This document shows, in pieces, positions 81-9,944 of a stretch of 10,180 nucleotides of DNA. Every line of letters starts with the position of its first letter. The stretch's first letter is position 1. Under the pieces are notes generated by a model. That model had not been told where the DNA came from. It saw only the letters and a list, made by a program, of their open reading frames with translations, and did no database searches. Origin of the DNA: Ruminococcus flavefaciens (GTDB taxonomy: Bacteria; Bacillota; Clostridia; Oscillospirales; Ruminococcaceae); contig CADBQF010000408.1 of assembly GCA_902796705.1 (NCBI GenBank), positions 1 to 10,180 on the forward strand. The letters are read 5' to 3'. A program made the translations under genes and the position numbers.

Positions 81-110
81 AAAAAATAAGGGAGCATGAC
101 GCTCCCTTAT
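81..110 (-). terminator. Intrinsic terminator of the leftward six-gene operon
   Basis: A perfect 10-bp inverted repeat, ATAAGGGAGC (86-95) and GCTCCCTTAT (101-110), has a 5-nt loop. On the minus strand it runs straight into a T tract (complement of the A run at 81-86). It begins only 4 nt after the stop codon of the last gene, as expected for a Rho-independent terminator. Confidence 0.92.
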
Positions 111-114
111 GATA

Positions 115-1431
115 TCAATATCCAAGATCCTTCATTTTCTTTTTGAAGTCATTGTTTACCTTTGCGAGCTTCTTTCTCTCACGGGCCTGCTTTTCAAGCT
201 CGTTCATAGCTTCGGGATCGGAATTCTTTCCGACGTTCTCATCGTTCATGAAGCTGCTGAGTCTCTTGCTGAATGCAGAATTTCCGCCGCTTGTCGGTAT
301 CGGAACTGATACTGAACCGGAATTCTGTCCGAGAGGCTTTGAGATATTGCCGCTCTGCTGGTATTTGCTCGAAGTATTGTTGTAGAATCCCTGCTGCGGA
401 TAAGCACCTGCCTGGAGGGGCTGGCTGTTTATCTGCTGCTGATAGTACGGCTGTGCCTGCGGGAAGCCCTGATTCATCTGCTGCTGTCCCTGCTGCATAT
501 ACTGGGGGTTCATGCCCTGCTGCATCGGGTAGGGGTAGCCGTTCATCATGCCCTGCTGCTGTCCCTGCTGCATATACTGGGGGTTCATGCCCTGCTGCAT
601 CGGGTAAGGATAGCCGTTCATCATGCCCTGCTGCTGTCCCTGCTGCATATACTGGGAGTTTATTCCCTGCTGGGGGTTCATGCCCTGCTGCATCGGGTAA
701 GGGTAGCCGTTCATCATGCCCTGCTGTCCCTGCTGCATATACTGAGGATTCATGCCGTTGTACATATTGTTGTTCATAGGCATACCGTTGTTCGCAGGCT
801 GAACATTTTCAGCGGGTTTCTTTTCATCTTCTGCCTTGTCCTCAGCCGGCTTTTCGTCGGGCTGACCGATGACTTTGACAGGGTGAGCTGCTTCCGGAGG
901 AGGAGTCTCCTCGAAATCACCGAATCCGAAGTCTGCTGAATCAGGATTGAAATCAGAGATATCCATAAACGGTGAATTTGATGAAGCTTCATCTTTTGAC
1001 TCTTCTTCTGCTGCTTCTGCTTCGTCCTCAAATGTATCCTTGCGGAAGAACTCCGGAAGTTCATCTGAATCGGCAGTGAGTGACTTGTCTTCTGAAACAG
1101 CGATCTCACAGGCTTCGTTCTTTTCGTCGATGCCGATGAGAAGTCCTACGCACTCCTCACACGGAGGAATGATCTTCATATCGGAGAGTGAAATGGTCAG
1201 TGCCTTTTCAACAACTGTCCTTCCCTCTGCTTTCATTGAAATGACCGCATTATACTCCGGACTTGAAGCTGATACCTCACCATTGATGATCTTGATACCG
1301 TTCACACCGGCAAAGATATCCTTATCCTCTGTAAGGAGGACAGTAAGAGCTTTGATGCTCGGTGATGAAGTGATATTCTTCACATCTTCGGCAAGTTTTT
1401 TTGCAGTATTATATAATTCGTTGAACTCCAT
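115..1431 (-). CDS. Cytidine-deaminase-fold-like protein with Met/Gln/Gly-rich repeat tail
   Basis: This 438-residue soluble protein is the last gene of the leftward operon. Its start is supported by AAAGGAAG upstream of the ATG. Residues about 1-115 can be read as a cytidine-deaminase-like fold: a GVNG stretch near 42, SPEYNAV at 57-63 where active enzymes have C-A-E, and PPCEEC at 89-94 where enzymes have P-C-x-x-C. The Glu-to-first-Cys spacing (E59 to C91) is close to that of bacterial cytidine deaminases. The first zinc ligand would be Ser57 instead of Cys or His, so activity is doubtful. Residues about 130-220 are acidic and proline-rich. Residues about 220-350 are repeats of Met, Gln, Asn, Gly, Tyr and Pro. 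The last 50 residues are charged and probably helical. There is no signal peptide or membrane segment. The deaminase-fold reading comes from eye alignment only. A role as a scaffold or effector of the kinase/phosphatase module is inferred from operon position. Confidence 0.9.
   Translation of the reverse strand: MEFNELYNTAKKLAEDVKNITSSPSIKALTVLLTEDKDIFAGVNGIKIINGEVSASSPEYNAVISMKAEGRTVVEKALTISLSDMKIIPPCEECVGLLIGIDEKNEACEIAVSEDKSLTADSDELPEFFRKDTFEDEAEAAEEESKDEASSNSPFMDISDFNPDSADFGFGDFEETPPPEAAHPVKVIGQPDEKPAEDKAEDEKKPAENVQPANNGMPMNNNMYNGMNPQYMQQGQQGMMNGYPYPMQQGMNPQQGINSQYMQQGQQQGMMNGYPYPMQQGMNPQYMQQGQQQGMMNGYPYPMQQGMNPQYMQQGQQQMNQGFPQAQPYYQQQINSQPLQAGAYPQQGFYNNTSSKYQQSGNISKPLGQNSGSVSVPIPTSGGNSAFSKRLSSFMNDENVGKNSDPEAMNELEKQARERKKLAKVNNDFKKKMKDLGY
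481..760 (-). repeat. In-frame 75-bp tandem repeat in the Gln/Met-rich tail
   Basis: The landmark CATATACTG recurs at 496, 571, 646 and 736, giving spacings of 75, 75 and 90 bp. The third unit carries an 18-bp in-frame insertion and has lost one Gln codon. Each unit encodes about 25 residues with core motifs NPQYMQQGQQQ and GMMNGYPYPMQQG. The units are nearly identical at DNA level, which points to recent expansion by slippage or recombination and to possible copy-number variation between strains. Confidence 0.9.
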
Positions 1432-1513: not shown

Positions 1514-2548
1514 TCATTCTCCTCTGCTGAAGAAGCTGAGCTGATTCTTGCCGTTTGTTTTTGATGCGAACATAGCAGTCTCGGCACATCTGAAGATATC
1601 CTCTGAGCTTCTTGCGTCTACAGGGAAATGTGCTGCACCGTAGCTTGCTGTTACTGAGAAGCTGTCGCCTCTTACAACAACAGGCTCCTGGAATGCCTGC
1701 TGGATCGCACTTACACAGTTTATAACGTCCTCGTTTGTGCTTCCTGCGAGGAAAATTATACCGAACTCATCGCCGCCGATCTTGGCAACGAAGTCGTTTT
1801 CACGGACGATAGCCTCGATACGCTTAGCGTATTCCTTGAGAAGCTCATCACCTGTGCTGTGGCCGTAGCCTTCGTTTATTGTTCTGAAGTTATCGATATC
1901 GACATAGAGTACGAAGCAGTCAACGCCGTTCTTTGCATTTTCCTCAAGGTTATCAAGGAAGAGCTGTCTGTTAGGCATCTGTGTGAGACGGTCATAGTAA
2001 GCGAGGTATGAGAGAACTTCGTCCTTTTCCTTGATTATACGGTTGTTCTCGATAACCTGCTCGTATGAATCTCTGAGCTGCTCGTGTGCCTTTTCGTTTC
2101 TTACCTTGTATACGTAGATGATGATAAGAACTGCTGTAGATGCAAGTCCGATGAAGAAGCTCGGAAGAGCCTGTGTCTGTCCCTTGATAATAACAGTTAC
2201 GATAAGTGTTGAGATACCTGCTACCATGTTGATAGAACCGCCGATGATAAGTCCGACAAGACCGTTTGTAAGTACGAGAGCAACTGCTGCGATCAAGCCT
2301 ACCTGAGCGAGAACGCCGTTAACGGCATTCGCACCGGTGTGAAGGAGTCCGTTGAGAGGGCCTTCTACAGGACCCTTGTCAGGACCGATGCCGTATCTTT
2401 CTACAAGTCCATGGAATGCGTCGATGATTCCCTGAACTGTCTCGTTAGGCTGTGCTGTGTAATATCTCTGGAATATATTTACGCCTATAAGGATCGCCGT
2501 GAATATAATAAGTGTTGGTATATTGATTTTTTTCTTTTTGTTTTCCAT
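1514..2548 (-). CDS. Four-TM membrane diguanylate cyclase (GGDEF)
   Basis: The protein is predicted to make cyclic di-GMP from two GTP at the inner face of the membrane. The ATG at 2548 (344 residues) is preferred because GGAGA lies 7 nt upstream; an in-frame TTG at 2566 would add six residues but lacks that spacing. After a Lys-rich N-terminus there are four hydrophobic segments (about 10-27, 83-104, 106-122, 129-148), giving a cytoplasmic C-terminus. About 55 Gly/Pro-rich residues lie outside between the first two. A short charged helical linker (about 150-178) leads to the GGDEF domain (about 180-340). The metal-binding Asp217 in VDIDNF, an intact GGDEF at 258-262, and RxxD (R249, D252) five residues upstream as product-inhibition I-site are all present, so activity and feedback control are expected. 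The gene starts 19 nt after the PP2C stop, so it is very probably co-transcribed. The signal sensed by the membrane part is unknown. Confidence 0.93.
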   Translation of the reverse strand: MENKKKKINIPTLIIFTAILIGVNIFQRYYTAQPNETVQGIIDAFHGLVERYGIGPDKGPVEGPLNGLLHTGANAVNGVLAQVGLIAAVALVLTNGLVGLIIGGSINMVAGISTLIVTVIIKGQTQALPSFFIGLASTAVLIIIYVYKVRNEKAHEQLRDSYEQVIENNRIIKEKDEVLSYLAYYDRLTQMPNRQLFLDNLEENAKNGVDCFVLYVDIDNFRTINEGYGHSTGDELLKEYAKRIEAIVRENDFVAKIGGDEFGIIFLAGSTNEDVINCVSAIQQAFQEPVVVRGDSFSVTASYGAAHFPVDARSSEDIFRCAETAMFASKTNGKNQLSFFSRGE

Positions 2549-2567
2549 AATACATTCTCCATTCAAA

Positions 2568-3791
2568 CTAATCGTTTACTTCGATCTTCAGAGCATCTTC
2601 CTGAACTGCATCATCTTCTGCAACGTCGGCAGCAGTACTTTCCGCCTCTGTATCAGTTTCAACTGCCGCATCACCGGCTGTATCAGATGATTGAACATTT
2701 TCTTCAGGAATTGCGGCTTCGGGAGCTTCCGGTTTGTTTTCAGAGGTATCCGGCTCTTCCGCAGCGGCAGACTGTGCTTTCATCTGCTCTTCGATCCTTG
2801 ATCTTTCTTTTTCTGCTTCTGCTATTTCGTTCGGCAGAAGCGTATCCTGTCTTTTCTGTCTGAGAGCGTTCTTGATCTTTTGTTTTTCGAGGCTTGCGAG
2901 CTTTTCAGCTTTACGCATAGCGGCACGGTTCCTGTTGGCTTCGATAGTCTCATTGATAGCCTCAAGGTTTTCACCGACCAGTTCAGGATCAAATATACAC
3001 GATAAGGAGATATCGTCCTGAGTACCGTAGTGGGCACGTTTTTCGAGATTCTTCACTATCGTTTCATCGAACGTTTCCAATTCTGTAAGCTGGCTCGTCA
3101 CCATGCTGTGGTAGTCGAGGAAATCCTCCTCGCTGCCGAACGATGTGTAGAGTCCGTCTGTCGATGCGAACACTGCTATGGGCTGTATCTCATCAGTCAG
3201 TGCAAAACTGCTGAAATGGCTGAATGCCTGTGTGTTGCACATTGATGCCGTAACGTTTGCCGGGGCTGATTCCTCATACGACATCGGCAGCTCCGCATTT
3301 CCGTCTTCATAGACGACAACAAGGCTGCCGTCGCCTATCTGAAAACCGAACGTGAAGAATTCAGTTATGACAACTGCAATGAGCGTCGTTCCGTAGACTG
3401 ACTCCATTTTGAGCTGGCTGAATTCTTCCTCAGTGAATTTTTCTCTTTCCTTATCGGTATACGGATTAGCATTGAAATGCTCAGTAATACTGTCATTCCA
3501 GAGTGCTATTATCTTTTTTTCTATTTTCTTGATAATCCTATCCGGATCCCGAAGCATGTTATCGATAAAGTTGTCTCCTGCTGCAAAGCACTCATCAACA
3601 ACGTCCAGAGCAGCCTGCACGGCTTTTTCTGAGCCTACATTGCTTCTGAAGTGCTTCTTGCTTCCGTGGCCGTCGGCAACTACAGCCATGCCGTAATTGT
3701 CGCCTGTCCTGTATGCCGATGCATCCTGACAGACTATCCCGGAAGTTTCGTGGCTTGCTCCCTTGACAGTATGATTAAACCCATTCAACAT
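2568..3791 (-). CDS. PP2C-family Ser/Thr protein phosphatase with coiled-coil, acidic tail
   Basis: This 407-residue cytoplasmic protein is predicted to remove phosphate from Ser or Thr using two divalent metal ions. The phosphatase domain spans about 5-270 and retains the metal-ligand motifs: VVADGHG (Asp40), GDG at 153-155, STDG with Asp212, and TQDD with Asp259/Asp260. Residues about 275-340 are rich in Glu, Lys, Arg and Ala and look like a coiled coil. Residues 341-407 are an acidic Ala/Glu/Asp-rich low-complexity tail that may be a docking segment. It lies between the vWA gene (31-nt gap upstream) and the diguanylate cyclase gene (19-nt gap downstream). The placement matches the phosphatase member of the TerY-P triad, where it would oppose the neighbouring kinase. 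The start has AAGGAG about 11 nt upstream, slightly far but usable. Substrates are not known. Confidence 0.93.
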   Translation of the reverse strand: MLNGFNHTVKGASHETSGIVCQDASAYRTGDNYGMAVVADGHGSKKHFRSNVGSEKAVQAALDVVDECFAAGDNFIDNMLRDPDRIIKKIEKKIIALWNDSITEHFNANPYTDKEREKFTEEEFSQLKMESVYGTTLIAVVITEFFTFGFQIGDGSLVVVYEDGNAELPMSYEESAPANVTASMCNTQAFSHFSSFALTDEIQPIAVFASTDGLYTSFGSEEDFLDYHSMVTSQLTELETFDETIVKNLEKRAHYGTQDDISLSCIFDPELVGENLEAINETIEANRNRAAMRKAEKLASLEKQKIKNALRQKRQDTLLPNEIAEAEKERSRIEEQMKAQSAAAEEPDTSENKPEAPEAAIPEENVQSSDTAGDAAVETDTEAESTAADVAEDDAVQEDALKIEVND

Positions 3792-3822
3792 ACTCTTTCA
3801 TGCTCCTTCCGGCGAACGATCA

Positions 3823-4740
3823 TCACCAGCCCGTATCGAAAGGTACAGTATCCGAATAATCCTGTGATTTTACAAGCTCCTGTATCTGATCGCCGAGCAT
3901 CTTCTGCTTGGCTGCCGTTACATCAGCGGCACTCAGTTCATGATTTGTATCGTCTGAGAGAGTCATACTTTTACTGCCTATCTGTGAAGAGGTCACGGCT
4001 ATGATCTTTACCATCTGTGCAAGCTGTCCGCCTGAGTAAGCGTGTACGACGGTATCCTTTGTGCCTGTGAACTCTGCGAGCATATCATCATTCGCCTCTT
4101 TGCCTATACCGAGAGCAGCTTTAAGTCCAAACTTATACCAGCTATTTGCCTGAAGTGCCTTGAGTCCCGACTTGTAATCATCTGACGGATAGCCGTCCGT
4201 CATGAGGAATATTACAGGTGCGAACGATAATGACGGTGAATTGAGGAAACTGTTTCTGGACATTCTTACAGAGAGTTCTCTGAATGCCTCTCCCATGCTT
4301 GTGACACCGTCTGCACGGAGTCTTGTCCATTCAAAGTCCTCGATGGATATCGGCTCTGAATACATCCACATAACACTGTTTGCGAATGTAAGAACAGCGA
4401 TCTTTACGTCTGTGTCTGCCTCTCCGACACGGCGTATCTCAGGGATAAGCTCCTCCATAACTGTGTTCAGCTCTCCCATTTTTGTACCCTTCATGCTTCC
4501 TGATGTGTCGATGAGGAAGAAGATAACGAGACTCTTCTTCGACACGCCTGTAGCACTCAGCGGATCATCGTCGTCGAAATCGAGAAGTCCTGTATTCTTT
4601 ACAACGAGCTTCTGTTCATGCACCGGCGTTGATTTTGCATGAGGGACATTAGGTCCGTTTTTCTTGAAGTCGTCCATTTCCTGTCCGTTTCTATTGGCAG
4701 GTCTTGCCTTGTTGTCCGACTTTCTGTTTTCATTACTCAT
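3823..4740 (-). CDS. TerY-like von Willebrand factor A domain protein
   Basis: This 305-residue cytoplasmic protein has an intact metal-ion-dependent adhesion site (MIDAS): DTSGSM with Asp78, Ser80 and Ser82, Thr147 in DGVTSMG, and Asp182 in LMTDG. The vWA domain covers about 70-255. The first 68 residues are polar and probably disordered, with an acidic DFDDDDP stretch at 54-60. A helical tail follows (about 265-295). There is no signal peptide. TerY proteins of tellurium-resistance-type systems are cytoplasmic vWA proteins thought to assemble partner proteins through a bound metal ion. Here the gene lies between the kinase gene (52 nt away) and the PP2C gene (31 nt away), the order seen in TerY-P triads. 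A GGGAG/AGGAA region precedes the ATG. It could be a phosphorylation substrate or adaptor of the pair; that is inference. Confidence 0.92.
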   Translation of the reverse strand: MSNENRKSDNKARPANRNGQEMDDFKKNGPNVPHAKSTPVHEQKLVVKNTGLLDFDDDDPLSATGVSKKSLVIFFLIDTSGSMKGTKMGELNTVMEELIPEIRRVGEADTDVKIAVLTFANSVMWMYSEPISIEDFEWTRLRADGVTSMGEAFRELSVRMSRNSFLNSPSLSFAPVIFLMTDGYPSDDYKSGLKALQANSWYKFGLKAALGIGKEANDDMLAEFTGTKDTVVHAYSGGQLAQMVKIIAVTSSQIGSKSMTLSDDTNHELSAADVTAAKQKMLGDQIQELVKSQDYSDTVPFDTGW

Positions 4741-4792
4741 ATAATTCCTACTCCCTTCCTGAACACCTTATACGGTATCCATTATTTCTTTC

Positions 4793-6136
4793 TCAGATAT
4801 GAGCATTGACTTCGCCGAAATCGATCTCCAGGCCTTTCCAGAGGGGGAAACCTTTTCCGGGTGCGATGTCGTAGAACACACCGTCCGGCATTTTTGCACG
4901 CCATGTTCTGTCTGAACTGTTCTTTATTCCCAGCATACCCTGCTTGAGCTTGTTCTCGACCATTACGCCTGCTACCTTTGTAAAGTCGTCAGACTTTGGA
5001 TCGATCTCGCACTCGTAGAATTTGCTGCCCACAAAAAGCGGGATCCTATAGTCACGGTTGCTGAAAGCCAGTGTTATGAATTCAGCACCGCACTTCGGAC
5101 ATCTGTAAGTTACATCGTCCTTTATCTCGAACATTGAGGTGAAGTTCGTTCTGCCGCAGCCGCATGAGATTATCTCTGAACGCAGCCTTATGAAGAGCTT
5201 CTGCCACTCGTTCTCGATTATACGCTTGTTCGGCTCTTTGATGCCTGTTGTGAATGAAAGAGTGAAAGCGTCACGGACGTAATCGGGATATATCCTCCAG
5301 AACTTAATAACATTGTCATGTATGCCTCTTACAGGCCTGTTCGAGTCGTCATCGGGATCGTAAACGAAGACTGCCTGCTGACCGTAGTGTTTAAGTTCTG
5401 ATGATTCTGTAAGGCATATATCCTTTACAACCTTCTCGCCCTCCATAGGATCTCCTCTGAAGAGGAGCTTGAAGAGAACGACAGCGAGTGAGTATTTATC
5501 TGTCTGTACATTAGGCTTTGCAATGCCTCGTACTACCTCCGGAGCCATATATCCGGGCTTGCCTCCGATACCGAAGTTGCTTCCGTCAGGTGCGATGTTA
5601 TCACAGTCGCAGACGAGGATATCGCCTGTCCTTATGTTGATGAAGAAACCTCCGTCGTTAAGGTCCTGATAGCTCTTTCCGGCTCTGTGGAGCTGTCTGA
5701 AAGCATTTACTATATTTATGACTGCTGTGACCATTGCGTAAAGACTGCCGAACTGTACGCTCTGCTTTACTGCACGGCCTGTCATGGGATCGATCTCAAG
5801 TTTGTATGTGTTGAGGATATCGACGAATGAATCGTACTCCTGAGGGCGGAGATCCATGATATATCCGAACGTGCCGTCCCTGTTCTGCTTAGTGAGGTAC
5901 TTCGGCCACAGGAACTTGTCGCTCGGAGCACCGTCCTTGATATTGTTCTCGATATTCTTGCGGAATGCCTGAGGGTTCTTTATTTTATCGATATCGTACC
6001 ATTTGAGGGCGTACTTCATCTCGTTGAATTCAACAAGATAAACGATACCCTGTCCGCCGCTGCCGAGGATACTGAGAACTTTAGCAGATCCGCCGTACTC
6101 CATTTCGACATTCTGGCCGATTTTAAGCTCTACCAT
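4793..6136 (-). CDS. Ser/Thr-kinase-like protein with C-terminal zinc ribbon (TerY-P type)
   Basis: This 447-residue cytoplasmic protein has a protein-kinase domain over about 10-320. The Gly-rich loop GSGGQG is at 25-30, the ATP-anchoring Lys at 45 in ALKW, the catalytic-loop Asp at 158 in YQDLND, a DFG-equivalent DCD at 177-179, and MAPE at 197-200. HRD is changed to YQD and the Asn usually five residues after the catalytic Asp is Gly163, so the active site is divergent though most key residues remain. A zinc ribbon follows, with C325-G-C327 and C346-x-x-C349. Residues about 365-447 form a beta-rich C-terminal domain I do not recognise. No membrane segment is present, unlike PASTA-type kinases. 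It lies directly upstream of the TerY-like and PP2C genes, and a kinase fused to a zinc ribbon is the third member of the TerY-P triad. The ribosome-binding site is AAAGGA about 10 nt before the ATG. Confidence 0.92.
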   Translation of the reverse strand: MVELKIGQNVEMEYGGSAKVLSILGSGGQGIVYLVEFNEMKYALKWYDIDKIKNPQAFRKNIENNIKDGAPSDKFLWPKYLTKQNRDGTFGYIMDLRPQEYDSFVDILNTYKLEIDPMTGRAVKQSVQFGSLYAMVTAVINIVNAFRQLHRAGKSYQDLNDGGFFINIRTGDILVCDCDNIAPDGSNFGIGGKPGYMAPEVVRGIAKPNVQTDKYSLAVVLFKLLFRGDPMEGEKVVKDICLTESSELKHYGQQAVFVYDPDDDSNRPVRGIHDNVIKFWRIYPDYVRDAFTLSFTTGIKEPNKRIIENEWQKLFIRLRSEIISCGCGRTNFTSMFEIKDDVTYRCPKCGAEFITLAFSNRDYRIPLFVGSKFYECEIDPKSDDFTKVAGVMVENKLKQGMLGIKNSSDRTWRAKMPDGVFYDIAPGKGFPLWKGLEIDFGEVNAHI

Positions 6137-6169: not shown

Positions 6170-7225
6170 TTACTTGCCGAAAGGTGTACCCTTTGCGACT
6201 GTCTCCACCCTTATGCCGGCATTGAGGCAGTAGCGGTGGACGTATGAATTCTCATAACAGCGTATCGTCAGTCCGGGACAATATGAGAAAGCATCTTCTT
6301 CGATGAACTTTACGTTGTCTGAGAGGTAAAGTCTCTTGAGGCTGTCACATCCTGAGAAAGCTCCTGCACCTATACTGCTGACTTCTGACGGTATCTCTAT
6401 TATCTCAAGAGCATGGCAGAAAGAAAACGTATTGTCAGCGATCTCAAGCAGACCACTTGGGAGCTTGGCCATTGTAAGCCTTATGCACTGGCTGAAAGCA
6501 CCGTTCTTTATCATTTTTACCGACTCCGGGATAGTAACGCTCTTGAGGTGCTTGCACTCCGAGAATGCGTACTCACCAATGGCGATGACTGAATCAGGTA
6601 TGTATACCGACCTCATGAATCCGTATCCGTCGAATGCGAATCCTTCGATCTTCGTTACTCCGTCAGGGATCTTTACGTTTCCTCTGAGCCTGAACCTTGC
6701 GGCATCGATAGGACGGAGAACTTTGGCATTTATATCTATCGGGCCTCTTCTTACGGGTTCTCTCTCCTCCGGCATCTCCGGGGGGAGTTCTTCAACAGCA
6801 GCCTGCTTTGCCTCCGGTATTGCCGGCGTGTACTCCCAGCCGAGTATATACGTGAAGCAGACCATAACGAACTCAGCGGCGTTCTCCGAAAGGAAAACTT
6901 CGTTTATCATATACTCCTTCGCCTTCATTATGGCGATCTTCTCGTTTGACTCACGGAGCATATTGGTGACAACACCTGTCTGAAGCATACTCTTCAGCAG
7001 ACGTCTTTCTTTTTCGTACTCAGGAATAAAATCGTTAAGAAGCGCAATGAATTTGAACGGATCCCTTATGATATCCTTGCCGTACTGGTCGATCATCGAC
7101 CGTAAAGCACGTTTTATAGCGGCTGTGTTTTCAAAACCTGCAACATTTTCCTGAACCGGCGTACCGCAGTTCGGGCATACTGTGTCTGTTGATTTAAGCT
7201 CATAACGGCACTTCTCACAGAGCAT
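6170..7225 (-). CDS. Cytoplasmic zinc-ribbon, helical and BspA-type LRR protein
   Basis: This is the first gene of the operon, with 351 residues and AGGAGG 8 nt before the ATG. It begins with a zinc ribbon (C3-x-x-C6 and C17-x-x-C20). An alpha-helical region (about 35-130) contains YGKDIIRDP, LLNDFIPEYEKERRLL and a hydrophobic FVMVCFTYILGW helix. A Pro/Glu-rich linker leads to six leucine-rich repeats of exactly 23 residues starting at 186, 209, 232, 255, 278 and 301. These follow the LRR_5/BspA pattern (IPxxVxxIxxxAFxxCxxLxxV). Most BspA-like proteins are secreted, but this one has no signal peptide or anchor, so it should act in the cytosol. The likely role is protein binding, perhaps as a scaffold for the kinase/vWA/phosphatase set; this comes from context only. 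The helical domain resembles one I have seen in bacterial signalling proteins, but I cannot name it safely. Confidence 0.9.
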   Translation of the reverse strand: MLCEKCRYELKSTDTVCPNCGTPVQENVAGFENTAAIKRALRSMIDQYGKDIIRDPFKFIALLNDFIPEYEKERRLLKSMLQTGVVTNMLRESNEKIAIMKAKEYMINEVFLSENAAEFVMVCFTYILGWEYTPAIPEAKQAAVEELPPEMPEEREPVRRGPIDINAKVLRPIDAARFRLRGNVKIPDGVTKIEGFAFDGYGFMRSVYIPDSVIAIGEYAFSECKHLKSVTIPESVKMIKNGAFSQCIRLTMAKLPSGLLEIADNTFSFCHALEIIEIPSEVSSIGAGAFSGCDSLKRLYLSDNVKFIEEDAFSYCPGLTIRCYENSYVHRYCLNAGIRVETVAKGTPFGK

Positions 7226-7321: not shown

Positions 7322-7350
7322 AGTATATCACTTTCTTGGCAAAATGTCAA
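7322..7350 (-). promoter_or_regulatory. Near-consensus sigma-A promoter of the six-gene operon
   Basis: On the minus strand there is a perfect TTGACA (7350-7345), a 17-nt spacer, and TATACT (7327-7322). The start point would be near 7315, leaving a leader of about 90 nt before the ATG at 7225. The leader holds a weak 5-bp hairpin (CGGCA/TGCCG, 7255-7275) and the AGGAGG site. I see no recognisable riboswitch in it. Confidence 0.85.
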
Positions 7351-7728: not shown

Positions 7729-8724
7729 ATGAGAAAATTTACCAAACGGCTCCTGAGTTCCCTCGCTCTCGGTGCTTTAGCTGCATCATTCGCAGTAACC
7801 GGCGGATGCGGCAAGAAAGACGACGAGAAATATATCGTAGTCATCTGCAAAAGCCAGGACGAGTACTGGGACAGCACGAAGCAGGGAGCTTTCGATGCTG
7901 CGGAAGAGCTTGACATAAAACTTGACTTCAATGCTCCTGTCAACGAGGACTCAGAACAGCAGGTCACTATGATCTATGACGCTATCAATATGAAAGCCGA
8001 TGCTATAGTTCTCGCTCCTATCAATGATGACGAGAGAACTATAGATGCTGTTAAAAAGGCTGCCGCAAGCGGTATACCGGTGATCACTATCGATGACGAC
8101 ATTACCTGCGACGAGCGTATCGCCTGCATAAAGACTGAGAATACATTCGGCGGTGCTATCGCCGGACGTGCTGTTGAGAATATCATGCCGGAAGGCGGCG
8201 ATATCGCTATCGTTTCACACACTGTCACATCAAAGACAGCTCAGCTCCGTACAGAGGGCTTCAAATCTCAGCTCGAAGCTGACGGCGGCGAGGCATACAA
8301 GATCATCAGGACCGAGGACTGCGGCGGTGATATCCAGCTCTCCAAGGAGATCACCAAGAAGCTCATCAACGAGAATGACGGTCTGACTATGATCTATACA
8401 ACGAACCAGCCCAGCACTATCGGTGCTTGTCAGGCTATCGCTGAGGAAGGTGCGGGTGCAAGAGTCAACCTCGTCGGATTCGACTTCTTCAACAAGGCAG
8501 GCGACCACGAGAGTGCCGAAACTTACATCGAAAGCGGCGTGCTTGACGGCGTTATCGTCCAGAACCCCTATAACATGGGATACCTCGGCGTGAGATATGC
8601 TCACAAGTACACCGAGGGAAACAAGGTATCGGCTAACATCGACACCGGTGCTTACCTCGTTACAAAAGATAATATGAACGATGCAGACATCCAGCTTCTG
8701 CTCTACCCGACAAAGACTAAGTAA
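7729..8724 (+). CDS. Sugar-type periplasmic-binding-protein-like lipoprotein
   Basis: The 331-residue product starts with a lipoprotein signal: basic MRKFTKR, a hydrophobic stretch, then VTGGC with Cys27 as the likely lipidated residue. Thr at the -3 position is less usual than Leu. After a short charged spacer the mature part (about 35-325) matches the RbsB-like family (Peripla_BP_4). It has YIVVICKSQDEYWDSTKQGA at the start of the first lobe, ADAIVLAPIND, GIPVITIDDD, and VNLVGFDFF in the second lobe. Such proteins bind sugars or similar small ligands outside the membrane. AAGGAGGT lies 10 nt before the ATG. No ABC permease or ATPase gene is present; the only partner is the membrane GGDEF gene 14 nt downstream. 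The protein may therefore serve as a ligand sensor or share a transporter encoded elsewhere. The ligand cannot be named from the sequence. Confidence 0.93.
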   Translation: MRKFTKRLLSSLALGALAASFAVTGGCGKKDDEKYIVVICKSQDEYWDSTKQGAFDAAEELDIKLDFNAPVNEDSEQQVTMIYDAINMKADAIVLAPINDDERTIDAVKKAAASGIPVITIDDDITCDERIACIKTENTFGGAIAGRAVENIMPEGGDIAIVSHTVTSKTAQLRTEGFKSQLEADGGEAYKIIRTEDCGGDIQLSKEITKKLINENDGLTMIYTTNQPSTIGACQAIAEEGAGARVNLVGFDFFNKAGDHESAETYIESGVLDGVIVQNPYNMGYLGVRYAHKYTEGNKVSANIDTGAYLVTKDNMNDADIQLLLYPTKTK

Positions 8725-8738
8725 GGAGGAGTGCAGAT

Positions 8739-9944
8739 ATGGCTAATTTAAAGAAAGATATCACTGCGTTCAGTTCCAAGGGCTATGTCCTTGCTTCTGT
8801 GGTGCTGCTGCTCATCACACTCGCAAACTTCGTACTCATTAATATCGTTTTCATCAACTCAAAGAGCATCACTGACAACAACATGAAGGCTGTCCGTCAG
8901 ATGAACACGATCAACAGCGAACTTGCGAACGTAAACCGAAATGCTCTCATGATCGCCGGAAATATCGGTGATCCGTACGCCGCTGTAAGCAATATCGAGA
9001 ACTCGTTCAGGATCATCGAAGCCAATGAGGCTGCTTACGAAAAGATAAAGAACCGTTCCGACATCGAGATCAAGCGATACAATCAGAGTAAGCTCCTCCT
9101 CGAAGCTTATCACCAGAAGCTCTTCGCTATAAGAGATACTTTCAGAAGTATCCCGCCGGAGGGCAGACGTGAGATCTACCTCCAGGAACTCCACCCGCTC
9201 CAGATCACTGCTACTGAAATGTTCCTCGCTGCCAGTGAGCTGAACGATAAGAACGCTGACGATCTCGTTCATAGAAACTCTATCATCCACGGTATCTCTA
9301 TCGACCTCATGATCTTCCTCCTTGCTGTCGGTGAGATCGCTATCTTCCTCCTCGGCAAGAGAGCTAAGAAGTCACATCAGGAACTCCTCCGCAGACAGCA
9401 CGAGATCGAAGTTGCCGGCGAAAAGCTCCAGCTTTCAAAGGACAGAATGACCGACCTCGCCCGTATGAACCTCCTCACAAATATGAAGAACCGTTATGCT
9501 CTTGAGGACGAGCTTTCAAGCCGCCTTGAGACTGACCAGTTCAATATCGGCGTATTCGATATCGATAATTTCCGCAATATCAACGACCTCTACGGCTATG
9601 CCTTCGGTGACGAATACCTCGCTGCAATCGGTGAGGCTCTCAACAATGAGTTCAGCGATGTAGCACGTATCTACAATATCACAGGTAATGAGTTCTGCTT
9701 CGTATTCAACGATGACGTTCCTGACAGCCAGGCTCAGAAGATCGCTGAAAAGATCCGTACAGTCATCTCGAATCCCTATACGATACTCAACATCAGCGTT
9801 CAGTCATCTGTATCAGGAAGCATCTACCACTACCTCCCGAATGACTGCCTTAACGTCAGTGCCCTCCTTATCAAAATGGACACAGCCGTCCACAACGTAA
9901 AGAGAAACGGCGGAAATTCAGTTATCACTGTAAACAACCTCTGA
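8739..9944 (+). CDS. Membrane sensor with helical extracellular domain and degenerate GGDEF
   Basis: This 401-residue protein has TM1 at about 15-38, an extracytoplasmic mostly helical domain of about 145 residues resembling the four-helix-bundle sensors of chemoreceptors, TM2 at about 184-206, a charged coiled-coil-like linker (207-240), and a C-terminal GGDEF domain (about 241-400). The first metal-ligand motif FDIDNF (Asp274) is kept, but the signature reads TGNEF at 315-319. The first Gly is Thr and the acidic third residue is Asn. The RxxD I-site is missing, its positions reading SDVA. Cyclase activity is therefore unlikely; the domain may bind GTP or a partner instead. GGAGGAG (8725-8731) directly follows the stop of the binding-protein gene and lies 7 nt before this ATG, so the two genes are translated from one mRNA. 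The pairing suggests the lipoprotein delivers ligand to the extracellular domain, which is inference. Confidence 0.92.
   Translation: MANLKKDITAFSSKGYVLASVVLLLITLANFVLINIVFINSKSITDNNMKAVRQMNTINSELANVNRNALMIAGNIGDPYAAVSNIENSFRIIEANEAAYEKIKNRSDIEIKRYNQSKLLLEAYHQKLFAIRDTFRSIPPEGRREIYLQELHPLQITATEMFLAASELNDKNADDLVHRNSIIHGISIDLMIFLLAVGEIAIFLLGKRAKKSHQELLRRQHEIEVAGEKLQLSKDRMTDLARMNLLTNMKNRYALEDELSSRLETDQFNIGVFDIDNFRNINDLYGYAFGDEYLAAIGEALNNEFSDVARIYNITGNEFCFVFNDDVPDSQAQKIAEKIRTVISNPYTILNISVQSSVSGSIYHYLPNDCLNVSALLIKMDTAVHNVKRNGGNSVITVNNL

Follow-up and report, generated by a model that had tools for sequence, protein, structure and literature searches.

The window analysed here, 10,180 nucleotides long, is the entire contig CADBQF010000408.1 (C408) of a Ruminococcus flavefaciens assembly (GCA_902796705.1; 2.27 Mb in 441 contigs, 88.7% complete). 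Its minus strand carries a run of six genes with spacers of at most 82 nt, which encode a zinc ribbon-LRR (ZnR-LRR) protein, a Ser/Thr kinase, a vWA protein, a PP2C phosphatase, a GGDEF protein and a deaminase-like repeat protein. We favor, with moderate confidence, the reading that this operon is a Ter-independent variant of the TerY-P triad working as a cytosolic phospho-switch, the mechanism of which is postulated below. It is probably a phosphate on/off switch that represents a lineage-specific offshoot, in gut Ruminococcus, of a tellurium-stress/anti-phage module.

The triad and its partner proteins

The TerY-P triad is reportedly to be credited to Anantharaman et al. 2012. In PMC11090510, it is defined as a TerY-like vWA protein, a PP2C phosphatase and a Ser/Thr kinase that is C-terminally fused to a zinc ribbon. 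The window encodes a vWA protein with a MIDAS, an adjacent PP2C and a kinase-zinc ribbon fusion, and the match to this triad claimed by the first-pass annotation thus agrees with the published definition. That annotation, made from the sequence alone, had also described three adjacent, co-directional genes, and the open reading frames (ORFs) are indeed found as described, all three on the minus strand and separated by spacers of 31 and 52 nt.

The zinc-ribbon kinase, the MIDAS-intact vWA protein and the PP2C with its metal ligands are each borne out by Pfam and by residue counts in alignments, the rows of which contain the window sequence twice as well as paralogues and a few duplicate records. 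The kinase possesses catalytic Lys45, Asp158, Asn167 and Asp177, and Gln157 makes it a non-RD kinase; Lys45 is kept in 100 of 101 rows (the remaining one being a gap) and the catalytic Asp158 in 99 of 101. In the vWA protein, the D-x-S-x-S motif, Thr147 and Asp182 are kept in 89/89 rows, while an acidic motif ahead of the domain and FD(T/S)GW at the C-terminal end are conserved. Asp40, Gly41, Asp212, Gly213 and Asp260 of the PP2C occur in 88/88 rows and Asp259 in 87/88, and the phosphatase ends in a long, acidic, low-complexity C-terminal extension. Beyond its zinc ribbon, the kinase bears a tail that the first-pass annotation had missed; in a predicted model of the tail folded alone, structure comparison identifies an FHA beta-sandwich fold, and the FHA domain of ArnA (5a8i) is among the structural matches.

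The ZnR-LRR protein is probably a cytosolic scaffold or sensor. Its N-terminal ribbon scores slightly below the cut-off (Zn_Ribbon_1 3e-5, 24.1 against 25 bits), and its four ribbon Cys are kept in 84-85 of 90 rows, five rows being gapped. The product of the sixth gene had been labeled a repeat protein; the repeat is present, in a middle part that is rich in Q/N/G/M/P and repeats in 75-base units, but a degenerate cytidine-deaminase-like domain precedes it. Of 23 members, 12 show a PF00383 match in this N-terminal domain at an E-value of 1 or less, the best being 8.5e-8; the match lies just above the cut-off in L056 (25.4 vs 25 bits) and below it in the window copy (0.083), which also falls far below the cut-off of an NCBIfam cytidine deaminase (0.0032). 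The full zinc/catalytic residue set is absent from the window copy, which has Ser-Glu-Cys-Cys with Ser at the first zinc ligand; among the deaminase-like ORFs found across the loci, not all of them inside the operon, 30 of 84 have it. A basic C-terminal pattern is seen in 70 of 72 cases. The simplest reading would be that the sixth gene is a deaminase decaying into a scaffold.

Distribution, Ter genes and paralogous triads

Gene order was surveyed in named loci, the best 80 of 238 confirmed relatives from a genome contig scan and hence the nearest copies, titled mostly Ruminococcus, Oscillospiraceae or Clostridia. The profiles were built from the same loci that were later searched, the order and identity counts omit those loci whose contigs are short or whose genes are incomplete, and three locus pairs have identical kinases (L038/L072, L080/L082 and L084/L086). 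Among testable loci, the LRR gene lies upstream in 78/78, and the vWA, PP2C and deaminase-like genes are found in 75/75, 70/73 and 74/74, the last figure leaning towards success because a locus entered its test set if it had either a match or 5.5 kb of downstream sequence. The six-gene operon of the first-pass annotation stands for five near-invariant members, but the diguanylate cyclase gene separates PP2C from the deaminase-like gene in only 27 of 74 named loci and, being absent in 47, was rejected as a core member. In L043, seven consecutive GGDEF genes occupy this place.

In an even draw of 148 genomes of the family, the window genome included, 31 match at all and 13, spanning ten genus codes, carry a kinase of at least 67% identity; these copies have the LRR gene in 12/12, vWA in 13/13, PP2C in 12/12 and the deaminase-like gene in 11/12, the exception (L047) having it on the opposite strand. 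The order is thus found in several genera, as the first-pass annotation had proposed to check, with the GGDEF gene optional. Among 100 genomes of the genus, a match is present in 84 and the window-type kinase in 77 (hand count), one of these kinases being in two pieces. A vWA search of 292 class genomes at E up to 1e-8 matched the window genome and two others. Both R. flavefaciens and R. albus, which are in culture, possess the near-fixed operon, and its inheritance in Ruminococcus and near relatives is probably vertical. One locus titled Alistipes senegalensis (L066, JAMPEF010000001.1) has the Ruminococcus operon with a kinase 86% identical; it is probably a mislabeled or mixed assembly. Across 38 complete operons of 92 loci, the mean pairwise identity is 0.85 for the kinase, 0.83 for vWA, 0.66 for PP2C, 0.65 for LRR and 0.52 for the deaminase-like protein, compared with 0.43 and 0.51 for the flanking substrate-binding protein (SBP) and second GGDEF protein; therefore, the kinase and the vWA protein evolve slowly together relative to their neighbors.

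The claim that the triad lacks Ter proteins holds for the window, in which no Ter gene was found, but not for the cell: seven TerD matches lie elsewhere in the genome (contigs C368, C51, C146 and C24), with a TerF-like vWA on C146, and absence of Ter genes from the cell was accordingly rejected. A TerD gene next to the triad, the arrangement of a Ter stress system, was found neither in the window nor in the stretches surveyed around the 80 named loci and the 13 copies of the family draw, some of which lie on short contigs; one family copy shares its contig with TerD, 25.9 kb apart, and the other 12 have none on theirs, some of these also being short. A separate set of Ter-type kinases, most of about 490 aa, occurs in 13 family genomes, all with TerD, and 9 of its 14 copies lie 3.1-4.1 kb from TerD, the other five being on contigs without it. 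In L055, the order is vWA-PP2C-kinase-P-type cation ATPase-TerD-TerD. Comparison of the Ter-type tail with the window-type kinase tail by hhalign gave a probability of 0.6%, and no link was made.

The window genome holds two further triads that the first-pass annotation had not noticed, as it had not noticed the deaminase-like domain. The type C kinase (C125) is about 40% identical to the window kinase, and its catalytic-loop residues are intact. The type C order in L174 and L175 is ATPase-TerD-TerD-kinase-vWA-PP2C-LRR, the ATPase being identified by Pfam in L174, and the genome's own C51 terminates in ATPase-TerD-TerD; C51 and C125 are therefore probably neighbors. No TerD was found within 15 kb of type C in L176-L180, and neither vWA nor PP2C within 15 kb in L177, L179 and L180.

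The type B kinase (C333) is about 57% identical to the window kinase and belongs to a set of 15 listed copies with 50-62% identity (L004, which is C333 itself, L048 and L161-L173). Its catalytic Asp is replaced by Gln, Ala, Tyr or Gly in 15/15 copies, while the PP2C ligands beside these pseudokinases are intact in 15/15. The 15 kinases form one branch within type A (SH-aLRT 98, quick tree, for which the program warned of long branches in types C and T). Five loci (B1) keep the order kinase-vWA-PP2C behind an iron-hydrogenase-like Fe-S protein, and the vWA MIDAS is intact in these copies wherever it can be read, part of L166 being masked. In the remaining ten (B2), the kinase and PP2C genes are not separated by a vWA gene, and in eight of them genes for mannose-6-phosphate isomerase, TerD and AIM24 follow, as in L048:10781-13319, the other two being cut by contig ends. 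Because the phosphatase is intact in these naturally kinase-dead sister triads, they lend themselves to testing whether phosphotransfer is required at all.

A proposed switch and its alternatives

From the observed gene content, active-site residues and gene order, the predicted fold and the slow evolution of the kinase and the vWA protein, we infer the remaining steps of a Ter-independent phospho-switch. The kinase would be activated by its partners rather than via its activation loop, a route that appears disfavored because the enzyme is non-RD and has one Ser/Thr at most in residues 183-198. Its zinc-ribbon/FHA-like tail may dock the MIDAS-bound vWA protein, in the manner of the Sulfolobus pair ArnA and ArnB. 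The kinase would phosphorylate the vWA protein and clients, for which the acidic/Thr motif ahead of the vWA domain and the FD(T/S)GW end are candidate phosphosites or docking peptides, and PP2C would undo this phosphorylation. The ZnR-LRR protein may serve as input or scaffold and the deaminase-like, low-complexity protein is a likely output or client; in loci with a GGDEF gene, the switch may also receive c-di-GMP or membrane signals. For TerY-P inputs, substrates and outputs, the constant partners narrow the candidates to the ZnR-LRR and deaminase-like proteins.

Precedents for parts of this scheme exist. YegL is a vWA protein. At the Escherichia coli YegI / PphC (YegK) / YegL locus, neighboring kinase and PP2C genes are reported to act together, PphC dephosphorylating the kinase YegI (cited in PMC13232886), which supports kinase-phosphatase pairing in general; YegI is reported to be membrane-bound and without conserved motifs, and this comparison is by description rather than by sequence. 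In Sulfolobus, the FHA protein ArnA binds the vWA protein ArnB in an interaction tied to phosphorylation sites (PMC6509490). This FHA/vWA pair is the closest mechanistic analogue of the window operon, although it is archaeal and represses motility and its FHA protein is not itself a kinase.

Compared with the TerY-P triad, the operon shares the vWA protein, PP2C and kinase with C-terminal zinc ribbon. It differs in not adjoining ter genes in the copies examined, in its order kinase-vWA-PP2C, in its fixed ZnR-LRR and deaminase-like partners, in the predicted FHA-like tail past the ribbon and in being near-core in the genus. The earlier suggestion of a distinct version thus stands as regards a conserved operon with no TerD nearby, but Ter-free TerY-P-like triads are already in print (PMC11090510, PMC7699616). 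A literature search, which left subscription journals mostly aside, found nothing linking Ruminococcus with TerY-P.

Several observations weigh against the proposed switch. The PP2C gene is missing in L083, L095 and L100, where vWA runs directly into a GGDEF gene. The conserved order partly reflects shared ancestry because the 80 named loci are closest relatives, mostly of one genus, and the SBP gene, outside the operon, is itself present at some position in 55 of the 66 stretches whose upstream flank is long enough. The classical phospho-Thr motif of FHA domains is GR...SxxH. It was not seen in the alignment of the kinase tail, none of 39 kinase members has a Pfam FHA match in the tail at an E-value of 1 or less, and Foldseek reached 1.2e-2 at best, so that phospho-binding by the tail is doubtful; a sequence search of the tail against PDB returned a single match, at E 1. 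Finally, TerD, present in 20 of the 148 family-draw genomes, is enriched where the window-type kinase is present, occurring in 8 of these 13 genomes and in 12 of the other 135 (Fisher p 2.3e-5, uncorrected for phylogeny; seven weak kinase matches, E 1.6e-7 to 9.2e-4, were left unclassed).

A bolder possibility, which we hold only tentatively, is that TerY-P was converted from a stress/defense module to a near-core Ruminococcus signaling operon and then duplicated into the branch that lacks kinase catalysis and retains the phosphatase. The kinase and vWA protein would then mainly constitute a sensing complex of pseudokinase and MIDAS that gates PP2C, with phosphotransfer optional and the deaminase-fold protein as output.

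The association with TerD, together with the seven matches in the genome and the TerD gene that follows the B2 pseudokinases, would be expected if the operon were a detached part of the cell's own tellurium/metal-stress system acting in trans on TerD encoded elsewhere. We consider this rather unlikely, since 5 of the 13 window-type-kinase genomes, all at least 96% complete, have no TerD, and none was found around the copies surveyed, some of them on short contigs.

A stand-alone TerY-P-like anti-phage module is reportedly to be credited to Gao et al. 2020. Defense genes are expected to be patchily distributed. That module has the same three activities as the window operon and no Ter genes (PMC7699616, PMC11090510), but its kinase is described as having an OB fold instead of a zinc ribbon (PMC11090510), whereas the window kinase has the ribbon and a tail model that matches FHA folds, although folds beyond the listed matches may fit as well. 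With the operon near-core in the genus, its partners near-invariant and its kinase and vWA protein slow to evolve, a stand-alone defense role is improbable. PADLOC did not match the window vWA or PP2C, nor those of two Ter-linked triads, and gave one weak match (0.0071), to the PP2C of a pseudokinase triad; the miss on the window says little because the Ter-linked vWA and PP2C were missed too. Least probable is a surface or carbohydrate-sensing module coupled to c-di-GMP with the GGDEF proteins central: a GGDEF gene lies within the window operon, several follow one another in L043 and a divergent SBP-GGDEF pair adjoins the operon in many loci, but most named loci have no GGDEF gene at the internal position and of the 45 GGDEF-type ORFs across the loci just 18 have the strict motif.

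Flanking features

The short spacers, the promoter-like site and the hairpin with its T run make it likely that the six genes form a single transcription unit. The promoter-like site is a candidate only because such sites are no commoner in the window (16) than in shuffles (mean 14.0). An Rfam scan returned nothing at gathering score.

Table 1. Features of the window, with coordinates, strand and supporting evidence
Feature	Coordinates	Strand	Evidence
Intrinsic-terminator-like hairpin directly 3' of the last gene	86..110	-	11 pairs, T run
Deaminase-like protein with N-terminal domain resembling cytidine deaminase, low-complexity repeat and basic C-terminus	115..1431	-	profile and residue checks
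GGDEF protein, hydrophobic N-terminal part, motif intact, optional operon member	1514..2566	-	Pfam, motif check
PP2C_2 Ser/Thr phosphatase, metal ligands present	2568..3791	-	PP2C_2 2.3e-33 (Pfam)
TerY-like vWA protein, MIDAS intact	3823..4740	-	VWA 4.3e-8 (Pfam)
Ser/Thr kinase, 447 aa, with zinc ribbon and FHA-like tail at the C-terminus	4793..6136	-	Pkinase 4.5e-10 (Pfam)
FHA-like beta-sandwich tail of kinase, residues 352-447	4796..5083	-	predicted model, structure comparison
Zinc ribbon of kinase, Cys 325, 327, 346, 349	5090..5164	-	all four invariant, 37/37 rows
ZnR-LRR protein, 351 aa, N-terminal zinc ribbon and BspA-type LRR_5 repeats	6170..7225	-	LRR_5 3.5e-35
Promoter-like site upstream of operon (candidate)	7322..7350	-	TTGACA-17-TATACT, TG ahead of second hexamer; 11/12 positions match
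Divergent neighbor outside operon, Peripla_BP_4 SBP	7729..8724	+	Pfam
Divergent neighbor, GGDEF-domain protein, degenerate motif TGNEF	8739..9944	+	Pfam, motif check

An Fe_hyd_lg_C/4Fe-4S protein gene, whose product is a possible redox input, lies upstream of the pseudokinase triad in 5/5 B1 loci (e.g. L004:1841-3586); such a gene also lies upstream of the operon in 10 of the 66 window-type loci tested, L042, L088 and L125 among them.

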